A stretch of 64,000 bases of DNA, taken from Pomacea canaliculata (taxonomy: Eukaryota > Mollusca > Gastropoda > Architaenioglossa > Ampullariidae). The position numbers and the translations under genes were made by a program. The notes under the pieces were generated by a model. That model was given only the letters and a program-made list of their open reading frames with translations, searched no databases and was not told the origin of the DNA. Location: contig NC_037591.1 of the NCBI RefSeq assembly GCF_003073045.1, positions 20,300,319-20,364,318 on the forward strand, written 5' to 3'. This document shows, in pieces, positions 35,423-52,200 of this stretch; position 1 is the stretch's first letter; every line of letters begins with the position of its first letter.

Positions 35423-36292
35423 GCGGCGGCGGCGGCGGCAGCTTCCAGTCCATGTTCCTGATACACAAAGATCCAGAATCTCATTAAACGATGCGCGCTT
35501 CGGAGAGAAGAAAGTATAAAACTGGGAATAATCGAAGTGGAGAGATATGGCTGTATTATAAGCCCATTGAGCGAATGGACATTACTCTTAGTTGAAGAGG
35601 TACATTCATGTGGATAATCGTACATTATCAGGCACATTCATGATTACATTTTCAGACAAGTGCAAGCCAGAAAGCGGCCTGTACTGGTACCCGTATCTCC
35701 AGTTCTGCTTCATGTTCAGTTCCCAGCAGGCCACCTACAGTGTCGCCAAGCAGGACTGTGAGGCTAAGGGCTTTCGCTTAGCTGTCCTAAACACCGACCT
35801 CAAGTACAACATGACGAGACTTCGCCTCCTGCACTTTTCAGGTAGCTATGCAAGTTCTCATAGTATATAAATGTACTCGATCACTTCCGATTTTGTGGTC
35901 TTGGCATAAAATGAGAAGTTGACCATCATCATCAACATCATCTCTGCTTCCTTCGTTGATATCAGGGTGCATATCTGTTACTCTTTCTATTTTCCATCTC
36001 GTTCTTGTATTATCATACACACATACGTACAGCTGATTGTGCAAAGCTGTACTGTTTTGATTTTGCAGATTTTAGTCAGCAGTCGTACTTCATTGGGGCG
36101 GAGAGAGTTCCTGGTCAAAACAACTGGACATGGGTGGACGGATCAGATGTCAAGAACCTGGACTGGGCTCCTGGTGAACCCAGCGACGCCACAGAAAATT
36201 GCCTTGATCTTCTCGTGATTCTTACGTTTCGCATGAATGACGAGAATTGTGCCTATAGCCTAGGGTACATGTGTGATGTACCGAATCCATAG
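35002..36292 (+). CDS. Secreted C-type lectin with PAN/apple-like exon, copy H (type 2, complete)
   Basis: Exons are 35,002-35,269 (268 bp), 35,656-35,841 (186 bp) and 36,069-36,292 (224 bp, TAG); the protein is 225 residues. It has the same signal peptide and cysteine-rich PAN-like exon as type 1, then a C-type lectin domain with FIGAE, WTWVDG, WAPGEPS, a leucine-rich variant segment (CLDLLVIL) and MNDENC. This is the only type 2 copy in the window with an intact leader, so it best represents the ancestral state of copies B, D and F. Introns are GT-AG, phase 1. AATAAA lies 68 bp after the stop. It is probably a secreted glycan-binding protein. The Glu of EPS aligns with the Glu of mannose-type EPN lectins. 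Confidence 0.92.
35338..35442 (+). repeat. Long compound (ATC)n(AGC)n(GGC)n microsatellite, intron 1 of copy H
   Basis: About 105 bp of three successive trinucleotide blocks sit in intron 1, about 70 bp after the exon 1 donor. The GGC block is unique to this copy. Translated, it yields poly-Ile/Ser or antisense poly-Asp/Ala frames, which are artefacts. Confidence 0.95.
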
Positions 36293-39894: not shown

Positions 39895-42800
39895 GTGAAT
39901 ATTTGTTTCATTTCTGTGTGTCCTTTTTATCTATTATCGTTTTCTCTTTCATTTTTTTTTTGGTTGGTTTCTTCCTTACTAAAGTTTTGTAGTTTCTAGT
40001 GTGTTCAGCTTCTCTTGGTTTCCTTCTAACACTTCTGTGTCTTTGAAATCCACTTCTCCCTCGCTCTGTTTGGCATGCACGTTAGTCATCTCAATGCATG
40101 TACATCTGTCACTTTCATACATATACATTTTGTAATTTTTATGTACAGCTGTATGTACATTTAAAGATCATGTCCACCTCTTTTACTTACATTTTTCCTG
40201 TTCGTTGGTTTGGTTTCAGTGTGTGTGCGTGTGTGTGTACTCGTCCAAGTTTGCTTGGAAAACAATCAGGATTTAGTGCAGAACCCGGTACGTGTTGAAA
40301 CATTCTCATGTCCACATTGTTGTAGATGAACCATCAACACGTTGGTGAACCTGAACATGTTTATCACGCTCACTTACAGTCACATGGCACAGGTCTGTAA
40401 ATGATGTGCTGCTTGTTTGACATGTTAATGGTCATCTGTCTACAGGGTCAGTCATTTCTCACAATGGCACAGTCTTGCGATGGTCGGCATTATTCTGTTC
40501 CTTGACCTTCCATCTACCCGAGGCCAGGGTCGACTGCAACTGCCCTTCGCTCGGTCGAGCGTGTGGAGGTCGGGACTGGACACAGTCCACAACTACGATG
40601 ACCACCTGTTAGAATGTGGTGGATACTGGGTGTGTCTCGTATTATTATCTTATTTCATTAATAAAACATAATTTTGGTGATTGTTCGATATTAGGAAAAG
40701 TCATTAAGCATAGGATTTTTGATTAATTATTGAAATGAACAAACCAGGAAAAAGTGAATAAACGGTTATTCAACATTTTTTTTGGTACATATTGTTGTGT
40801 TATGCTGGATGCTAAACTGTAGTTGTTTTAATAGATAATGAACTGGGCTATACTGTAGTCTTTGTGTCATGTGTCAGGCGATACAGATGTATATTGTAGT
40901 TGTGTTATGTGTCAGACTACACTGTAGTTGTTGTGTCATATGTCAGACTACACTGTAGTTGTTGTGTCATATGTCAGGCTACACTGTAGTTGTTGTGTCA
41001 TGTGTCGGGCTATACTGTAGTTGTTGTGTCATATGTCAGACTACACTGTAGTTGTTGTGTCATATGTCAGGCTACACTGTAGTTGTTGTGTCATGTGTCA
41101 GACTACACTGTAGTTGTTGTGTCATGTGTCGGGCTATACTGTAGTTGTTGTGTCATGTGTCAGACTACACTGTAGTTGTTGTGTCATGTGTCAGACTACA
41201 CTGTAGTTGTTGTGTATCATGTGTCAGACTACACTGTATTTGTTGTGTCACGTGTCAGACTACACTATAGTTGTTGTGTCATGTGTCAGACTACACTATA
41301 GTTGTTGTGTCACGTGTCAGACTACACTGTAGTTGTTGTGTCACGTGTCAGACTACACTATAGCTGTTGTGTCACGTGTGATACTACACTGTAGTTGTTG
41401 TGTCATGTGTCAGACTACACTGTAGTTGTTGTGTCATGTGTCAGGCTACACTGTAGTTGTTGTGTCACGTGTCAGACTACACTGTAGTTGTTTTGCTTGT
41501 CAGTACAAGAAGCGCAGAGGCAATCAGTGTGGGTTGTGTGGAGATCCCGTTGACGGACCCAGAGATCATGAAGCAGGGGGACGTTACGCTACTGGTATAC
41601 TGACGGCAAGCTACTACCCGGGACAAGTGAGTTACCCCGCCTTGGTGACGTCATCTAGTGCATGGCAATACTTCACTGTCTTGTTTTTACCATTTCTCTT
41701 ATTGAATTTAAATGTTTTCAACTGTTAAAGACGCAGTCGATAGAATGCAGTTGAAACTGTGCCTATTTCAAATACGATTTCGAGAATTATCGAAAAAAGC
41801 GATAAAATTTGCTTTCAAATTTATGTATGAATAACAAATGTTTTCAGGTTTCGAATGTTCGCCGAATGTGTCATCACTTGTAGCACCTTCACTGGCTTAT
41901 CGTTAGTTATGTCACTGAACAGTACCTTCATCGGCATTACAATGTTACTGGATTGATTAAAATATGGCTCACAGAACGATCCGTTTACCAAACACGACAT
42001 TTGACTTCTCGGCCAACCTCACATCTCTAAACATTTTATGTTTGTAAATTTGTCGAAAATCGGGTTAGAAAGCTGATAACTAAGAGACACTTAAAATATT
42101 GCCCGCAGAGGACACAGTTCAAAGTCCTGATGAATACCAACCAAGGAGGATATTTCCAGTTTAGCATCTGTTCTCTGCAAAGCTCCAGCGAGGCATCAAC
42201 CCAGGCGTGTTTCGACCAGCATCCAGTGCCACTTGCTGACGGATCTGGCTTCAGGTATGGTACAGACAGCAGTGACGACTTTGTACGGACACATTTTATT
42301 ACAAAATTACATTTCTAAATTATATTTATATAGTTTATAAGTGCTTTTTGTGTGCAATTTCTCTACTCATAGTTGGTCTCATAGCAAGTATAAGTGTTAT
42401 AACACAACCTGGATTTGTTAATCTTCAAGTGATATTGTTTTCTATTCTACACCTTAACTTAATGTTGAATTTAATACATTTGATATGTTTTTTACAACCA
42501 ATACAATTATTTCTGGTATTCAAATAATAATATTTTCAATGTTAATACTACTTACAAATAAGTATCATGCATATAATAATTTCTTTTGAAGCATTTACGG
42601 CAATGAAAGTAAAAGGTATAAGTTATAACTGTATAATTCAAATGAAGTCGGTGCTTTTCAAAGATAACGCATTTTCTGTTTAGCTTTACACCAGTGTAAA
42701 CTGTTTCAAATGTCCATCACTACGAGCTTGAGTCAGTGTACCAGTCACTACAGTTGTGACTACACTGATGCAGCTTCAGACACTAACTGACAAAAAAATA

Positions 42801-44822
42801 GACAAGAAAGAATCTGAGCGGGAAAGCATTGTTGTAACTTTGTGCAGGTACTATTTACCTGAGAATCAGCAAGGTGTCTTTACGGTCGACGTTGTCATCC
42901 CGGAAGTGACTTGTCAAGCGTGTGTGTTGCAATGGATATACACCGGAAGTAAGTTTCGGGGTTACGTGCAGAGTATGCGATGTATAAGTAAACCTTTCAG
43001 AAAGCGAAGGACTGAGTATGAATGTGATATTACCTGTCATGTTGCGTTAAGACCGTTCTTAACCAGAGAAATGTTTGAGCTGGTATGGCAAATTTTTGTA
43101 TAACTGTCAGGTGTAAACTTTCTGTGTCCGTGTTTTTCTGGTTAAGAACAACTGTAAAGCAAAACATAAGCGAAACCAGTAGATCCTGGGAGCAGCATTC
43201 TTTTTCTCAGGACAGATGCGCAAGTAGCAAAAAGTTTTCTAGCACAAGTAGCTTATGCGGGTAGTTATGTCAAAAAACAATCAAAGTCTCACAATGATAC
43301 CCTCATAAACACTAGATAATGCAAATATTTCTTGTCATAATTACAAACTAGGAAGCAAATCCAGCATTTTGTTGTGCTTACTGTTTTTCTTTTGTTTTTG
43401 TTTTTTTTTAATTTTTACAAAATCCTCGAAAACGTGCGTGCCTTGGACAGATCATGCCTGGGGTTTTGATGCTGATGGAAATGAGTGTCGGGGCTGTGGA
43501 CCTCAGTACGAACTGAGGAACTGCGCAGACGTGGCCATCACTTCCGGTGCAACAGTACAAAGTACTAACCCCTTTTATGAGTATCCTTAAATTCAGTCAC
43601 TTCAAGCCCGAAAAACAATTTTCCTTTTCTGTTTACCATTGAACTGTTGAACCGATATGTTTATCTCTTTACAGCTTTGTGTCCAAGTAAAATATATTTC
43701 TGAATGATGAAAATTGTCCTCAGCAAGTTAACCCTTTTTCAGATTTTTTAAATTCCTTTCGTGTCTTCTTAATATTTATATTTTGTATTAATTTCAGTCA
43801 ATCCAGTTATTCAAAACTACAACAGAGCAGAAATCAATGGTGGCAGCTCAGGAGGGCCTTACCTGTACAATCCATCCAATTCTCCGACGAGTCCGACATT
43901 CGTGTCCCCTGATCTGAACGGGTTCAACACCGGGCTCCGTTGCGTCGCCGTGGGAACCAAACGGAACATGCGTGGTATGGACGACTGGTGTACAGACAAC
44001 TGCAACAAGAACTACTGCCCACAGGCTACGTGCTCGTGTCAAGGGTCACAGCAAGCGCCCTCTGGCACACCGACGGTTAGAGTTAACGATCCTTGGGGCG
44101 ATAGCGTGAAGCAGCTTCCTTTCACAACCCCACCACGGTTTAACGGATTCGTCACCCCCAACGTTTATCCCCCTTACCAAACTGAAGCAGAAAGTGTTAC
44201 GAGTGGAAAGCGAAACTGCGTTGGCGTTGGACCGCAGAACGATGTTCCTGGGATGAGCGAGTGGTGCTCTGACAACTGTAACGACCAGTTCTGTCCCAGG
44301 GACCTCTGTTCTTGTGAAGGGTCTGACGGCACCGGGCAAAGCACCTCAGGTGATCAGAATGGTGAGCCTGACCTCAAGCCTGCTGATCCCTGGGGCGTCC
44401 CACAACCTCCCACAGACCTTGACGGTCCCATCGCAGGTCCGGTAACTCCGTCCCTTCAATGCGTCGCCATAGGAACGAAGCGCGGAATGAGAGGAATGGA
44501 CGAATGGTGCACTGAAAACTGTAACAGCAATTATTGCCCCCGTGGCACGTGTTCTTGTCAGAGCATTGGCAACAGCCCTCCTCAGAGCCCGCAGTCGGGA
44601 ACCGAGGACCCTTGGGGAAATGCGTACAACCAGCAGGGAGAGACTGAGAGAAAATCCCCCGGTGCCCTCCCTTCGGTCGTGCGTAACGACAACATCAACA
44701 CCAGCCATGATGGACAGAAGAAATGCGTTGGAGTCAGTCCCAGGATGGGGCACATGGACGAATGGTGCACAAACAACTGCAACAGAAACCACTGTCCGCC
44801 TGCACTGTGCGCGTGTACTTGA
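39884..44822 (+). CDS. AA15-type LPMO homologue lacking both copper histidines, with four C-terminal cysteine modules
   Basis: Exons are 39,884-39,894, 40,446-40,629, 41,504-41,626, 42,109-42,254, 42,848-42,948, 43,451-43,546 and 43,798-44,822, giving about 561 residues; all phases agree. A signal peptide (h-region MVGIILFL) ends at STRG. The mature protein then follows the AA15 pattern: GRLQLPFARSSVWR, NYDDHLLECGGYW, QCGLCGDPVDGPRDHEAGG, GGYFQFSIC, TCQACVLQWIYTG, AWGFD and RNCADVAI. The mature N-terminal residue, His in AA15 enzymes, is Gln31 (CAG 40,525), and the second brace residue (NHxG) is Gln118 (CAA 42,142). It is therefore probably not an active copper oxygenase. The last exon adds four C-x13-15-C-x3-C-x4-C-x4-C-x-C modules with WC and NC pairs, the first three each followed by DPWG. 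It is probably a secreted polysaccharide- or matrix-binding protein. The first exon is inferred; ATG 40,480 is the alternative start. Confidence 0.85.
40846..41494 (+). repeat. 31-bp minisatellite, about 20 copies, in an intron of the LPMO-like gene
   Basis: Head-to-tail copies of a 31-bp unit (gactacactgtagttgttgt followed by gtcatatgtca) with few substitutions, for example atatg/atgtg/acgtg, gac/ggc and one 2-base insertion. The array runs into the 3' splice site of the next exon (cag at 41,501-41,503), so its last copy supplies part of the pyrimidine/branch region. Confidence 0.93.
43935..44819 (+). repeat. Four protein-level repeats in the LPMO-like tail
   Basis: Modules start at about 43,940, 44,218, 44,460 and 44,725. 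Modules 1 and 3 share CVA(V/I)GTKR and RGMD; modules 2 and 4 share CVGV and lack TKR. The alternation suggests duplication of a two-module block. Linkers after modules 1-3 carry DPWG. I do not know a named domain for this pattern. Confidence 0.85.
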
Positions 44823-46240: not shown

Positions 46241-49200
46241 TTAACTACTAGGATGGAACTGACCAGTCGTTGTTTCGTATGAGACGAAGTAATTACCTTC
46301 CTTGAATGGCGGAGCAGATTTGTCTTCCTTGGCCCGCCAGACCATGGTGATGTCTTCGATCGTACGCCCTTTGGTTTCAGGAAGGTACACGAACGTGAAA
46401 ATGGCGAAGAGCAGAAGAAAGACCGTGAAGGGCAGGAAAGTATAGTCACCAAGTCCTTTCTGTGGAAACAAAATGAGGATCGCCGTGTGAACATTAAACA
46501 GTCTAAAACATGCCGGCATTGTAAACAGGATATTTCCGCAGGACGCACTCGTCGACTGTTAAAATGGAAGCGGGAGTCAGTTTGTCAGCCACTCAGTTAC
46601 TTTTACCGAGACACACGAGCGTAAAAGAGATGACTGTTGAGTTATAAACTGTTGCAAAGGTAAATGTTGCATGTTCGACCAAACTAATTAAAGTACTTGA
46701 ATGTGGACAAAAGGAATAGCTATGAGTAAATGATAATACAGATCAAATTTTACTTTTCTAATGAAATGAAGAATAATATTTAAAGCGATATAAGTGTTGC
46801 TTTCCTCAATCGCCATCTTACGATAAAGTAATATTCTTTGATCAGCGCTAGCAAACTAGAAGGTAAGATGATTAGCAAAAGAACTTTTGACCTGAATGAA
46901 AGGGAAAGAGTAGCCCACGATGAAGTTGGCCACCCAGTTGACCAGCACGGACACACTGATCGCCACTGATCGCGGGCCCTGTGCGAAGAGCTCGGCCACT
47001 ATCAGCCATGGAATGGAGCCTGGACATAGGAGTCACGTGTGTGTGTCAGCTGGTCAGTGCGTGTGGCAATTCATCTTTTTCTTTCATTCTTGAAGTAATC
47101 ACATACTAGAATGCAGTGAAACTCGTCTTCAATATCACAGGCTTTACATTTAGTCTGTAACCTTGGTACATTGGATCCTATTGTCCTTTAAATGTTGTCA
47201 ACGTTTGCAAGACCGTGGATTAGGAAACACGGTGGACTTACCAGGTCCCAGTGCAAAGAAGACAACGAAGATGAGTGACACAACGATACTGCCTATCTTG
47301 AATCCTTCCACTTCATCCTGAAAGTCAACCCAGTCGTGAATGACAATAGAGGAGGAGGCAATCTAGACGTATCAACAAGGCAGCTCATGTCTTTTACATT
47401 TTGTTATTAGTTTGGTCAACTGAGCTCTGTCCTACTGAGCTGACTATGTTAGGAGACAGCGAATCACACAAAAAAAAAATAAAGAGAGAAAAGAAAATCC
47501 CCAACGAACTCGGTAGCTCCTGTCGGTTAGTCACGACACTCGTTATTTTTTGACGGTTAGCAAGTTGTGTCCTTTGCTGCATAATATAAGAAATGGCAAA
47601 CATGACCTGTTAAAGTCTTTGCTACACGGAGTGTCAATGTTTTTCCCACATAACTAGTTAAAAAACTTACATCGATTCATATCTACACAAGCCAGTGCTA
47701 AAACAATATCTGATCCTGCAGGTGGCTTACCTTCAGTGCCAAGGTGAGGGTGATGAGGATGCTAAACAGGAACATACCGCCGAGACCCACCATGTGCAGC
47801 GTTCGCCTGCCCAGCCTGTCCATCAAAGGAATCGTCACCAGTGTCATGGAAACCATGACCGCGCCCACTCCGCTAGTGGCATGAATGGCCGTGTCCTCCT
47901 CCAGACCGGCGCCTTTGAAGAGGCTGGAGGAGTAGTAGAAGATCTGAAGACGAGAACGAGGCAGCGAGCGTGACTGTCAGTACGGGTGGTGAGGTTGAGG
48001 TATGTTAAATCTCTAGACCGACAGCATGGTACAGGTATTCGGGGTGTCCTGGTGCTTACCTGCGAGCTAGGGCAGTCAATCATTTTATTTACTTCACAGA
48101 CAATTGAATGTTTCGACATTTGCTTCCACTGATGCTGTCTCGGATCATTAGTTAATCATTAAATCATCGGCACGTCTATGACATTCTGCATTCCTTTGTA
48201 CTTTAATGTCAGGTTATATTCCTGTTAAATTATTCTTAATCAGAAGGAAACGTTTGAAGATAAGTTTCAAAACTAAATGGCACAGCCACCCAGTCAGTGA
48301 GTGACCCACCCCGTTGATACCAGACAGTTGCTGCGACAGTTGCATGACGATGCTAATGATGAGTGGCGTGCGCAGACTCTTCTTGCTGACGAAGTCTTGA
48401 AGGCGTATCTGCAGACGACATTTGGAAAACTTTGTCAGGTGAACTTGTTTAGTATGTTACTGAAGTTAAAACATAAGTTCTTGTAGGTACATGTTTTATG
48501 TAAAAACTGGGATGCTGTCTTGAACCAAGTTGGTTAGCTACCTTGTAAAGTCCATGTCTTGAGGTCTCACTTCTCTCTATCATTCTGTATCAAGCTCTAT
48601 CAAGCCACTCTGTATTAATTCCGTTCAGGACACACAAGGATTTGTCAGACACACATCCATTCTGTCCACAGTACCTTCGGTTCCGATGCCGTATGACAAG
48701 CTTCTGCTTTCATCTCTTGGATGTCGTCGTCAATGACATCTGTACCTCGCAACATCCGGAGAACTGTCACAGACGTGACACACAATTTATACCTCCAGGA
48801 ATCTTGTTTCCCCTTTTAACAATGCCAATATCCATATTATATATATACGCAGTAACAACATATTCGATTACAACACACTTGTATCTTTGATATCAAGGGT
48901 CAGTACACAAAAGATCACAAGTGAATATAATAGTTTCTTTCTCTTTCTATATATAAACACACACACCTAATGTTTTCAAATATAATCAGTGTCACCAATG
49001 CGAGAAGCAGTGACCGGGTTGTTTAGGGGGGAGTGGGAAAACTGGCCTTGACACACTCCACTTCACCAGGTAGGAATGTTTTGTCAAGCGATGCAGTCAA
49101 CAGACTCGTTCAGAGCAACTGTTACCTCTCCGCGCCTCCTCCTCCTGTTCCTTGGCGATGAGAAGAAAACGCGGGCTCTCCGGGCACACGGGCAGCAGCA

Positions 49201-52200
49201 GCAGTTGAACAACGCACGGTACTATCGTCAGACCTGAGCCAAGTAAACACACACACGCACATCAACAAACAGACAAAGACACACATATCTATACACACGC
49301 ACGTGCTGAGTGTGAACAAATAAACATATGACGTATATACGCACGAGACGTATACACACGCGCACGCACGCACTTATCTTTGCTCAGGTAGCGGCATGTA
49401 CACTGTAAGTACCCAATGAAATATATTTGAATAGTAGTTATACACACTTTAAAGCAGTATTGTCATTCAAAGTAGATGTTACATTTTAAATGATGTTAGT
49501 ATTTGTTTAAAGAGTAAAGACCTACATTCTTACCAATGCAAATATTGATATATATATATATGTAGACTCATGCTTTGTATGTTTGTTAGTTACTAAACGT
49601 TGCCATAAAATGGACAAAGGAAGGAGTAAAAGTAAGTAGTGTGTAAATAATTTGTGCTTGTGTCCTCCACTGACACGTGACCCTCACCCAGCAGGATTTC
49701 CCAGTAGTCGTCAGTGCCCAGGATTTCAGGAAAGCCCAGAATCTGTGAGAGCAGGATGCCGCACACAACTCCCAGCTGATGGAGGACGCCCAGCGCTCCC
49801 CGGATGTGCAGCGAACTGACTTCCGACAGGTACATGGGGGTGAGTCCGGTGTACAGGCCTGGCAGCAACAATACATATAGACACCAACGTTTGTACATAT
49901 GTTCCGTGTGACAGGTCTGCTAATGTCATTGTGTCATCAGTGGCACAGTGTAAACACCAACGTATGTACATATGGCGGTCTGTCACGTGTACAGCTGTGT
50001 AAACATCAGTGACACAGCATCGACACCGAGATAAGTGCACTGGGGTCGTTTGAGTACAGGCCTGTTACGCAATGACAGAGATATGGAACACAATATCGGT
50101 TTAAAGATAGTTATCTGTCCTCCGTCTTGGCATGGTGGCCGCAGTGACACACTGACACAGTGACACCAAAGGGAGGGAAGTAGGTAGGAAGTATGAAGAG
50201 AATGCGCTGGACGTGGGAAGGGACGTGTCTCTGAATGTTATTCGTACTTCTGAGGTACAGCAAAATATTAAGTACTTATCTTGCTAACAAGCTTACTGCG
50301 TCTAAAAATCCAGTTAATTTTGCGTTGCTTTTTTTAAAGTTTGATAGCTGATCACTTCTGTTGTCACTGATTACTTTCTTGTCCACAACTACAGCTTGCT
50401 ACTCGTGTTGACACTACCTATGTGTACCGCCGTATGTCTCGCTATACAATTATCAGCTGCTTCTTGTACTCGTCCCTGTCGTCTTGTCTTTACTGTGGTC
50501 AAGCCAATGTGACAGTGAGCTGCGCACCTGACGAAAAGCCGATGACGAGTCTGCCGACAATGATCATTTCGTACGCCGCGGCTTGTTTGCTGAAATACAT
50601 CAGAGCCGCCCCCACCACTCCAACCACAGCGCTGATCGCCATCCCGTGTTTCCTGCAACAACAGTCACACGACAGTTCTATTCTATTACAGGCACACTAC
50701 ACGCCCTCGTGCAAGCAAACAAGTAAACAAGTGTGTTTGTAAGTATGAACGTGTGAGTGTGCATGTGAGGTAAAGACAGAGAGACTGTGTGTCTTGGGGG
50801 GAGGATTCGATCCTCTAAATGCTTATTCGCTCTCGTTGCAATCCTCAGTAAAAAGGAAACAGTTGTAAAGTTGTATCAACCAGTCACAGAGAGAGTTCAA
50901 CTGACCGGCCGAAAAAATTGGACCAGGCTCCAGCCAGGATCCCGCCAACACAACCACCCACAGCAAAAATGGCCACAATGAGGGCGTACAGACAGGTCAC
51001 ACGGTCAGATGATGCTGGTGACCCCGACCTGTCCCAGTCTGTCTTGTTCACGAAGTCCTTGATGTTCTGAAAAAGGAGCAAACTTATAGATGATATCCCA
51101 TCATACTTTGCGGCAACTCGTGTGCGCTGAGGGACTTGCCTCAGGGTTTACTCAGTTTTCTCACATGGTTTACAGGCTTCTTTTGGATCCTTGTATCTAG
51201 AGACTGAAAGCTATCGACATTCTCTATCTACAGACGGAAAGCTATGAACATCCTTGTGAATCAGGATTAAGTTTACCCTCGAGATCAGATACCATGACGA
51301 TGGAATAGAAGAGATGCGTGTTGGGTTATTCAGTTTCCAGTTCCTCACTTCCTTTGTGACAACTGTGGTGCACACAGACCGATGTTTATTGTAAGAGGAA
51401 GAAATGATAAAGTAATAAGAAGTCAGCAGCAGGCAGGATCATCAACATGATAAAAACCCTGGGAGTCCCATCTCACCTTCTCTGGGACGTTGATGACACC
51501 CGTGTTGTACCCGAAGCACAAGGATCCCATGACAGCATAGAGTACGGCCAGCATGAGCCGTCCAGTCACCCGCTGTAACATGACACGACACAATCACTCG
51601 CTGTGACATGACACGACACAATCACTCGCTGTGACATGACACGACACAATCACCTGCTGATATATCACGCCTCATATATTAATAAATATAGTAATAATTT
51701 GTATATCGCATACTCACACTCCTAAGGAGCATGTTCCTAGAGCTTTAACAACAAGAACGAGACATGGACAGCATATGAGGGAGAGAACGAAACAAACAAA
51801 TAGCATGAGCTACAGAAGAATAAACAATAGTATCGAGGATGAATAAGAAAACAAATACAGAAAACGCAAAGAGAAACCAAGTGGCAAGGACTGAGAGTGT
51901 CGTGACTGTGCACAAGGAAGACGAACAGGGAAGTTTCCATACGCGGAAAAGGAGGGAGGGATAATGTGGACAACAAAAATAAATAAAACGACTAACATTA
52001 GGGGAAAGGTTGTTAGGAGTAATAGTTAAGGAAGAAGTAAATGAGTTTTAATTGTTTTAAAAAATTCAATGGTGGGTAAGTGGCGGATGTGGAAAGGGAG
52101 AGAGTTCCATTGTTTCGCTGCACACTGGCTAAACATTCTGTGGCCATATCGCAGTATGGAAATGGCAGCCTTGTTAGAGTCATGACATGGCATCTGTTAG

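Follow-up and report, generated by a model that had tools for sequence, protein, structure and literature searches.

The window analysed here is a stretch of 64,000 bases of the Pomacea canaliculata genome (C2:20,300,319-20,364,318). On its + strand lies a gene of six exons, read from the splice sites in the DNA, in which all intron borders are GT/AG. Its frame starts with the ATG at 40,480, stays open for 546 codons (counted with the earlier of two candidate donors of exon 5) and closes with the TGA at 44,820-44,822. The original prediction had confined this gene to 40,522-42,150, which is too short: that interval reaches only into exon 3, and the gene ends at 44,822. The exons were aligned to TdAA15A, an AA15 protein of the firebrat Thermobia domestica (PDB 5MSZ), and the gene is laid out as follows:

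40,480-40,629, + strand: coding part of exon 1, signal peptide MVGIILFLDLPSTRG and then mature QGRL... (exon end GT)
40,525-40,527, + strand: CAG, coding for Gln in place of copper ligand His1 (5MSZ alignment, DNA reading)
40,899-41,492, + strand: minisatellite in intron 1, 31-base unit, 19.1 copies
41,504-41,626, + strand: exon 2, CGLCGD region (AG/GT borders, alignment to 5MSZ)
42,109-42,254, + strand: exon 3, NQGGYFQF region (AG/GT borders, alignment)
42,142-42,144, + strand: CAA, coding for Gln in place of copper ligand His91 (5MSZ alignment, DNA reading)
42,848-42,948, + strand: exon 4, CQACVLQW region (AG/GT borders, alignment to 5MSZ)
43,451-43,546 or 43,561, + strand: exon 5 with two candidate donors, CGPQYELRNCADVAI region (splice sites, alignment to 5MSZ)
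43,513-43,515, + strand: CTG, coding for Leu in place of axial Tyr184 (5MSZ alignment, DNA reading)
43,798-44,822, + strand: exon 6, which encodes a linker followed by four six-cysteine modules and closes with TGA at 44,820-44,822 (AG border, open frame)
43,941, 44,217, 44,460 and 44,724, + strand: starts of the four modules, which span 43,941-44,819 (pattern scan, alignment)

Elsewhere in the window, the sequence at 387-36,339 is duplicated in tandem, the period being about 10.98 kb, and for many 300-base samples identity from copy to copy is 100%. The tandem unit includes a C-type lectin domain at 35,960-36,289 (Lectin_C, E 9e-07). Downstream of the gene, on the minus strand, three open frames at 46,241-49,916 match Sugar_tr and are read as exons of a sugar transporter-like gene in the opposite orientation.

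Three protein searches of the genome (440,159,624 bases, 24 contigs) together gave at least 14 AA15-like loci, window gene included. Eleven came from the first search and three more from the second, these counts being lower bounds; the third added only C4:10.34 (E 7.65), which is not among the 14. Positions 1, 91 and 184 were read from the DNA and from the alignment. Both histidines and Phe (H/H/F) were present in nine of the 14 loci found, and both histidines were missing in four, each by different substitutions, as follows:

C1:37.98, C2:19.24, C2:20.215, C2:20.22, C2:23.003, C2:23.014, C2:32.64, C6:5.85 and C6:31.03: H/H/F
Window gene, C2: Q/Q/L
C2:23.446: R/M/Y
C2:23,566,751-23,568,146 (C2:23.567): G/L/Y, with His1, Gly2 and His91 lost (G/S/L)
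C4:8.44: G at position 1 and non-His at position 91, which lies at an exon border (Q by eye, G in the alignment); axial exon not found
C2:19,388,339-19,391,375 (C2:19.39): N/H/F, His1 replaced by Asn (AAT), 33 of 34 invariant columns kept, five C-terminal modules, short branch

The last of these is a predicted half-brace protein. Loss of the histidine brace is thus not confined to the window gene: the same genome has three other brace-less loci and one half-brace locus, which the original prediction had no means of seeing. Two of the brace-intact loci (C2:20,215,403-20,224,245) lie about 117-125 kb upstream of the window gene, in mutually opposite orientations. Single-base frame breaks were seen in the AA15 exons of C1:37.98, C2:20.215, C2:20.22 and C2:23.446, and may be assembly indels or decay; the window gene has no frame break.

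The start of the window protein was read from the DNA around exon 1. An in-frame stop lies at 40,426, and the sole in-frame ATG downstream of it is the one at 40,480. The peptide encoded from this ATG has the layout of an AA15 signal peptide, with a hydrophobic core and Gly at -1, and ends before residue 1. Thirteen of the 14 loci were lined up at residue 1 (C2:20.215 was left out, as its frame breaks there), and Gly stands at -1 in 12 of the 13, window gene included. Two of the 13 (C2:32.64 and C4:8.44) have no clear hydrophobic core in the frame read; in C2:32.64 a signal-peptide-like hydrophobic stretch, read by eye, seems to lie in a different frame from HGRL. The mature window protein therefore most likely starts with Gln where the canonical paralogues start with His, at the level of the predicted sequence. 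An upstream exon supplying another mature N-terminus, which the original prediction had named as a possible refutation, found no support, given the single in-frame ATG and the paralogue-like Gly at -1. A coding exon further upstream, spliced to an acceptor at 40,446, is possible and would not place His at residue 1. The N-terminal Gln of the mature protein probably cyclises to pyroglutamate.

When the first domain was compared with the PDB (phmmer), the best match was 5MSZ (E 9.7e-45, residues 2-189 of 190), and the only other row for this domain had an E of 0.23. At E 9.7e-45 chance similarity is no concern for the match to AA15, which covers the whole domain at about 42% identity to TdAA15A. 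No relatives outside the snail were found in phages, viral contigs or prokaryote genome contigs, so 5MSZ served as the sole outside reference. The copper site of TdAA15A consists of the ligands His1 and His91 and the axial Tyr184, and the axial letters in an arthropod AA15 set are given as Y, F or T in a figure legend (PMC5823890). The printed 5MSZ alignment begins at residue 2, right after Gln1, and further on it sets the second Gln against the His of APHIGFF. The proposed alignment to an AA15 protein confirmed both Gln codons, in frame and opposite His1 and His91 of TdAA15A, and added a third change at the copper site. AA15 proteins have one His as the first mature residue and another at position 91; the window protein has Gln at both, and its axial residue is Leu in place of Tyr, Phe or Thr.

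The surroundings of these positions are conserved as had been claimed, with WR, CGGY, CGLCGD and NCADVAI all preserved; the motif described as QCVLQW-like is also present, its exact letters being CQACVLQW. The domain has the ten cysteines of AA15. Nine of them coincide with cysteines of TdAA15A, and the remaining one is displaced in the way seen in snail paralogues. Tyr24 and Tyr166 are the aromatics that border the flat face of TdAA15A (PMC5823890). In the window gene position 24 is Tyr, as in seven of the nine brace-intact snail rows, and position 166 is Trp, as in all nine. The Pfam family LPMO_10 (PF03067) did not match the window domain at E up to 10. The same profile recognised TdAA15A and six of six further snail domains, including one that lacks both histidines and one that lacks His1. 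Against Pfam as a whole, AA9 and the Egh16-like family (PF11327) included, the window protein matched no family. Judged from its sequence, the copper site is lost in the window protein, which should then neither hold copper nor be catalytic. The two His-to-Gln changes, in a gene that is open and conserved elsewhere, thus mark a pseudoenzyme candidate as had been proposed, and the loss of the axial Tyr or Phe now joins them; that the gene is retained is borne out only in part.

Exon 6 encodes four copies of a six-cysteine module, each ending WC-x3-C-x4-CP-x3-C-x-C. Between copies (26 codons each) dN was 0.14-0.32 against a dS of 0.79 to saturation, and this constraint on the modules may predate the loss of the copper site. 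A strict pattern scan of limited DNA around the loci found modules in eight of the 14, with 1 to 5 copies each, as follows:

C6:5.85, C2:19.24, C2:20.22, C2:23.014 and C6:31.03: brace intact
C2:19.39: N/H
C2:23.446 and the window gene: brace-less

No Pfam family matched the four copies or one paralogue copy. NCBIfam gave a single match, NF043005 ('SCE4755 family polysaccharide monooxygenase-like protein'), which at 26.8 bits fell short of the cut-off of 75. Two weak PDB matches to phage coat proteins (best E 0.0069) were taken as chance. The AA15 sequences of T. domestica are described as catalytic domain only; in other species about one AA15 member in three is reported to have a C-terminal extension, mostly a carbohydrate-binding module (PMC5823890).

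Among known proteins, TdAA15A shares with the window protein the whole domain, the cysteine framework and the signal-peptide layout, and differs in having His1, His91 and Tyr184 where the window protein has Gln, Gln and Leu, followed by four C-terminal modules. Canonical snail paralogues (C6:5.85, C2:23.014) have the same exon 1 layout and AA15 domain, and several carry the six-cysteine module; they keep both histidines and an axial Phe, whereas the window gene lacks all three. Brace-less LPMO-like proteins are a known kind from fungal AA9. LsAA9B, a fungal AA9-like protein, is described as having no histidine brace (PMC10354095, PMC6950343). Like the window protein it is an LPMO-fold relative without a copper site; it differs in belonging to AA9 and in its N-terminal Arg, whereas the window protein is changed at both histidines and the axial residue. 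The window protein thus has a brace-less LPMO-related domain of the LsAA9B type and lies outside AA9, its sole significant PDB relative being an AA15. Also described are AA9 proteins of fungi whose first residue is Arg or Lys, one of them characterised with no activity detected, and the Egh16-like proteins (PF11327), LPMO relatives with an N-terminal His and no second His (PMC6950343). The latter resemble the window protein in their incomplete brace and differ in being fungal, with no Pfam match of the window protein to them. For another snail, Achatina fulica, AA15 is listed by dbCAN with a count of 8, and the accessible text does not comment on the brace (PMC10295696). The open literature searched (most subscription journals lie outside it) reported no brace-less AA15 or animal LPMO-like protein, and yielded no paper on a P. 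canaliculata LPMO, a shell-matrix LPMO or an invertebrate AA15 with a lost brace.

With moderate confidence, we read the window protein as an AA15-like pseudoenzyme that is secreted, holds no copper and carries four cysteine-rich modules; it would probably bind polysaccharide without catalysis. It may be a shell or matrix protein, as the original prediction suggested. The signal peptide would be removed to leave a mature protein starting with Gln. Because both brace histidines have become Gln and the axial residue Leu, no brace is left for copper, and the protein should not act as an LPMO. Since nothing known holds copper without the brace, oxidative cleavage is very unlikely. With the cysteine framework, Tyr24 and Trp166 kept, the flat face, which rests on polysaccharide in relatives, probably still binds crystalline or fibrous polysaccharide, for which chitin would be the first candidate, a guess from relatives. 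The four C-terminal modules would supply extra binding sites or cross-links, making the protein a multivalent, non-oxidising binder. The sequence itself shows the homology to AA15, the three substitutions, the unbroken gene, the cysteines and a signal for secretion; we infer every step of this scheme beyond the absence of the brace. It is supported by the open frame, the GT/AG borders, the ten cysteines and the Gly at -1 shared with the paralogues, and the nine brace-intact paralogous loci show the ancestral type.

The main alternative is a relaxed or decaying gene, in which the copper ligands disappeared once the need for the enzyme had ended, with the frame still unbroken. Its evidence, which also counts against the binder reading together with the missing LPMO_10 match, comes from conservation and branch lengths. 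Columns constant across TdAA15A and the nine brace-intact snail loci (ten rows) formed an invariant set of 34; because the rows were sorted beforehand by their histidines, the counts describe the rows and do not test them, and the window gene keeps 26 of the 34, fewer than two other brace-less rows. C2:23.446 keeps 29 (two of its five misses are a gap or X) and the incomplete C4:8.44 keeps 23 (seven of its 11 misses are gaps). C2:23.567 keeps the other 31 without a brace, so the fold can outlive the copper site. The end branch of the window gene is 1.6, against 1.41, 1.56 and 2.49 or more for the other brace-less rows and 0.18-1.51 for the nine intact snail rows; such long branches fit either relaxed constraint or a new role. 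The frame breaks in four other loci, possibly decay, point the same way. Against decay, 546 open codons, the splice sites and all ten cysteines are intact in a gene whose domain is only 31-46% identical to the other rows. When random substitution was simulated from the window domain, an open frame and ten cysteines survived in 0.55% of 2,000 runs at 10% substitution; at 2% substitution 36% of runs stayed intact, so a very recent loss of constraint is possible. We consider decay fairly unlikely.

The protein may also have been kept for another job in immunity or egg fluid, for example, where its partner would be a protein, a pathogen surface or a microbial glycan and the polysaccharide face would be reused or unused. 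A secreted, cysteine-rich protein with four repeated modules of no named family would suit such a role, and the tandem C-type lectin genes nearby are a hint at most, gene neighbourhood being weak evidence in animals. The aromatics bordering the flat face are kept, which argues against it, and we regard this reading as unlikely.

A third reading appears very improbable: that a metal site of another kind exists, formed by the His of NHAWG, which adjoins Trp166, or by other residues. Where the window gene has this His, each of the ten brace-intact rows has Asn, and by the position of Tyr166 the column lies near the former copper site (PMC5823890). One His with two Gln would, however, make a poor copper site. 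To our knowledge, a copper site of this composition has no precedent. Sequencing or assembly error at the three codons is extremely improbable: one base suffices for each His-to-Gln change and the frame breaks in four paralogous loci may be long-read assembly indels, but those breaks look like indels where the window changes are substitutions in two exons, at least two bases separate the axial CTG from any Tyr or Phe codon, and four other loci lack one or both histidines.

The reading of the window protein as a copper-free polysaccharide binder extends to the other brace-less loci in a weaker form. Placing the four brace-less rows in one clade lowered the log-likelihood by 6.94 (p-AU 0.031), a marginal rejection in a poorly resolved tree, and one clade of the three without the window gene was not rejected (3.78 lower, p-AU 0.135); no inner branch of the AA15 tree was starred and the tree is largely unresolved. 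Independent losses of the brace among the four loci are likely, not proven. That AA15 LPMOs repeatedly became secreted polysaccharide binders without catalysis in apple snails is a tentative proposal, which we hold possible and would not yet call probable. If true, it would define a group of pseudo-LPMOs in animals, some of them carrying the unnamed six-cysteine module in arrays, that perhaps build or protect the chitinous structures remodelled by their active paralogues. Where the brace is treated as the signature of an LPMO, brace-less relatives are missed or misread, and LPMO_10 is blind to the window protein. Brace-less and intact AA15 proteins side by side in one genome would provide a natural test of the LPMO fold as a polysaccharide binder, which bears also on the role of AA15 in molluscs.
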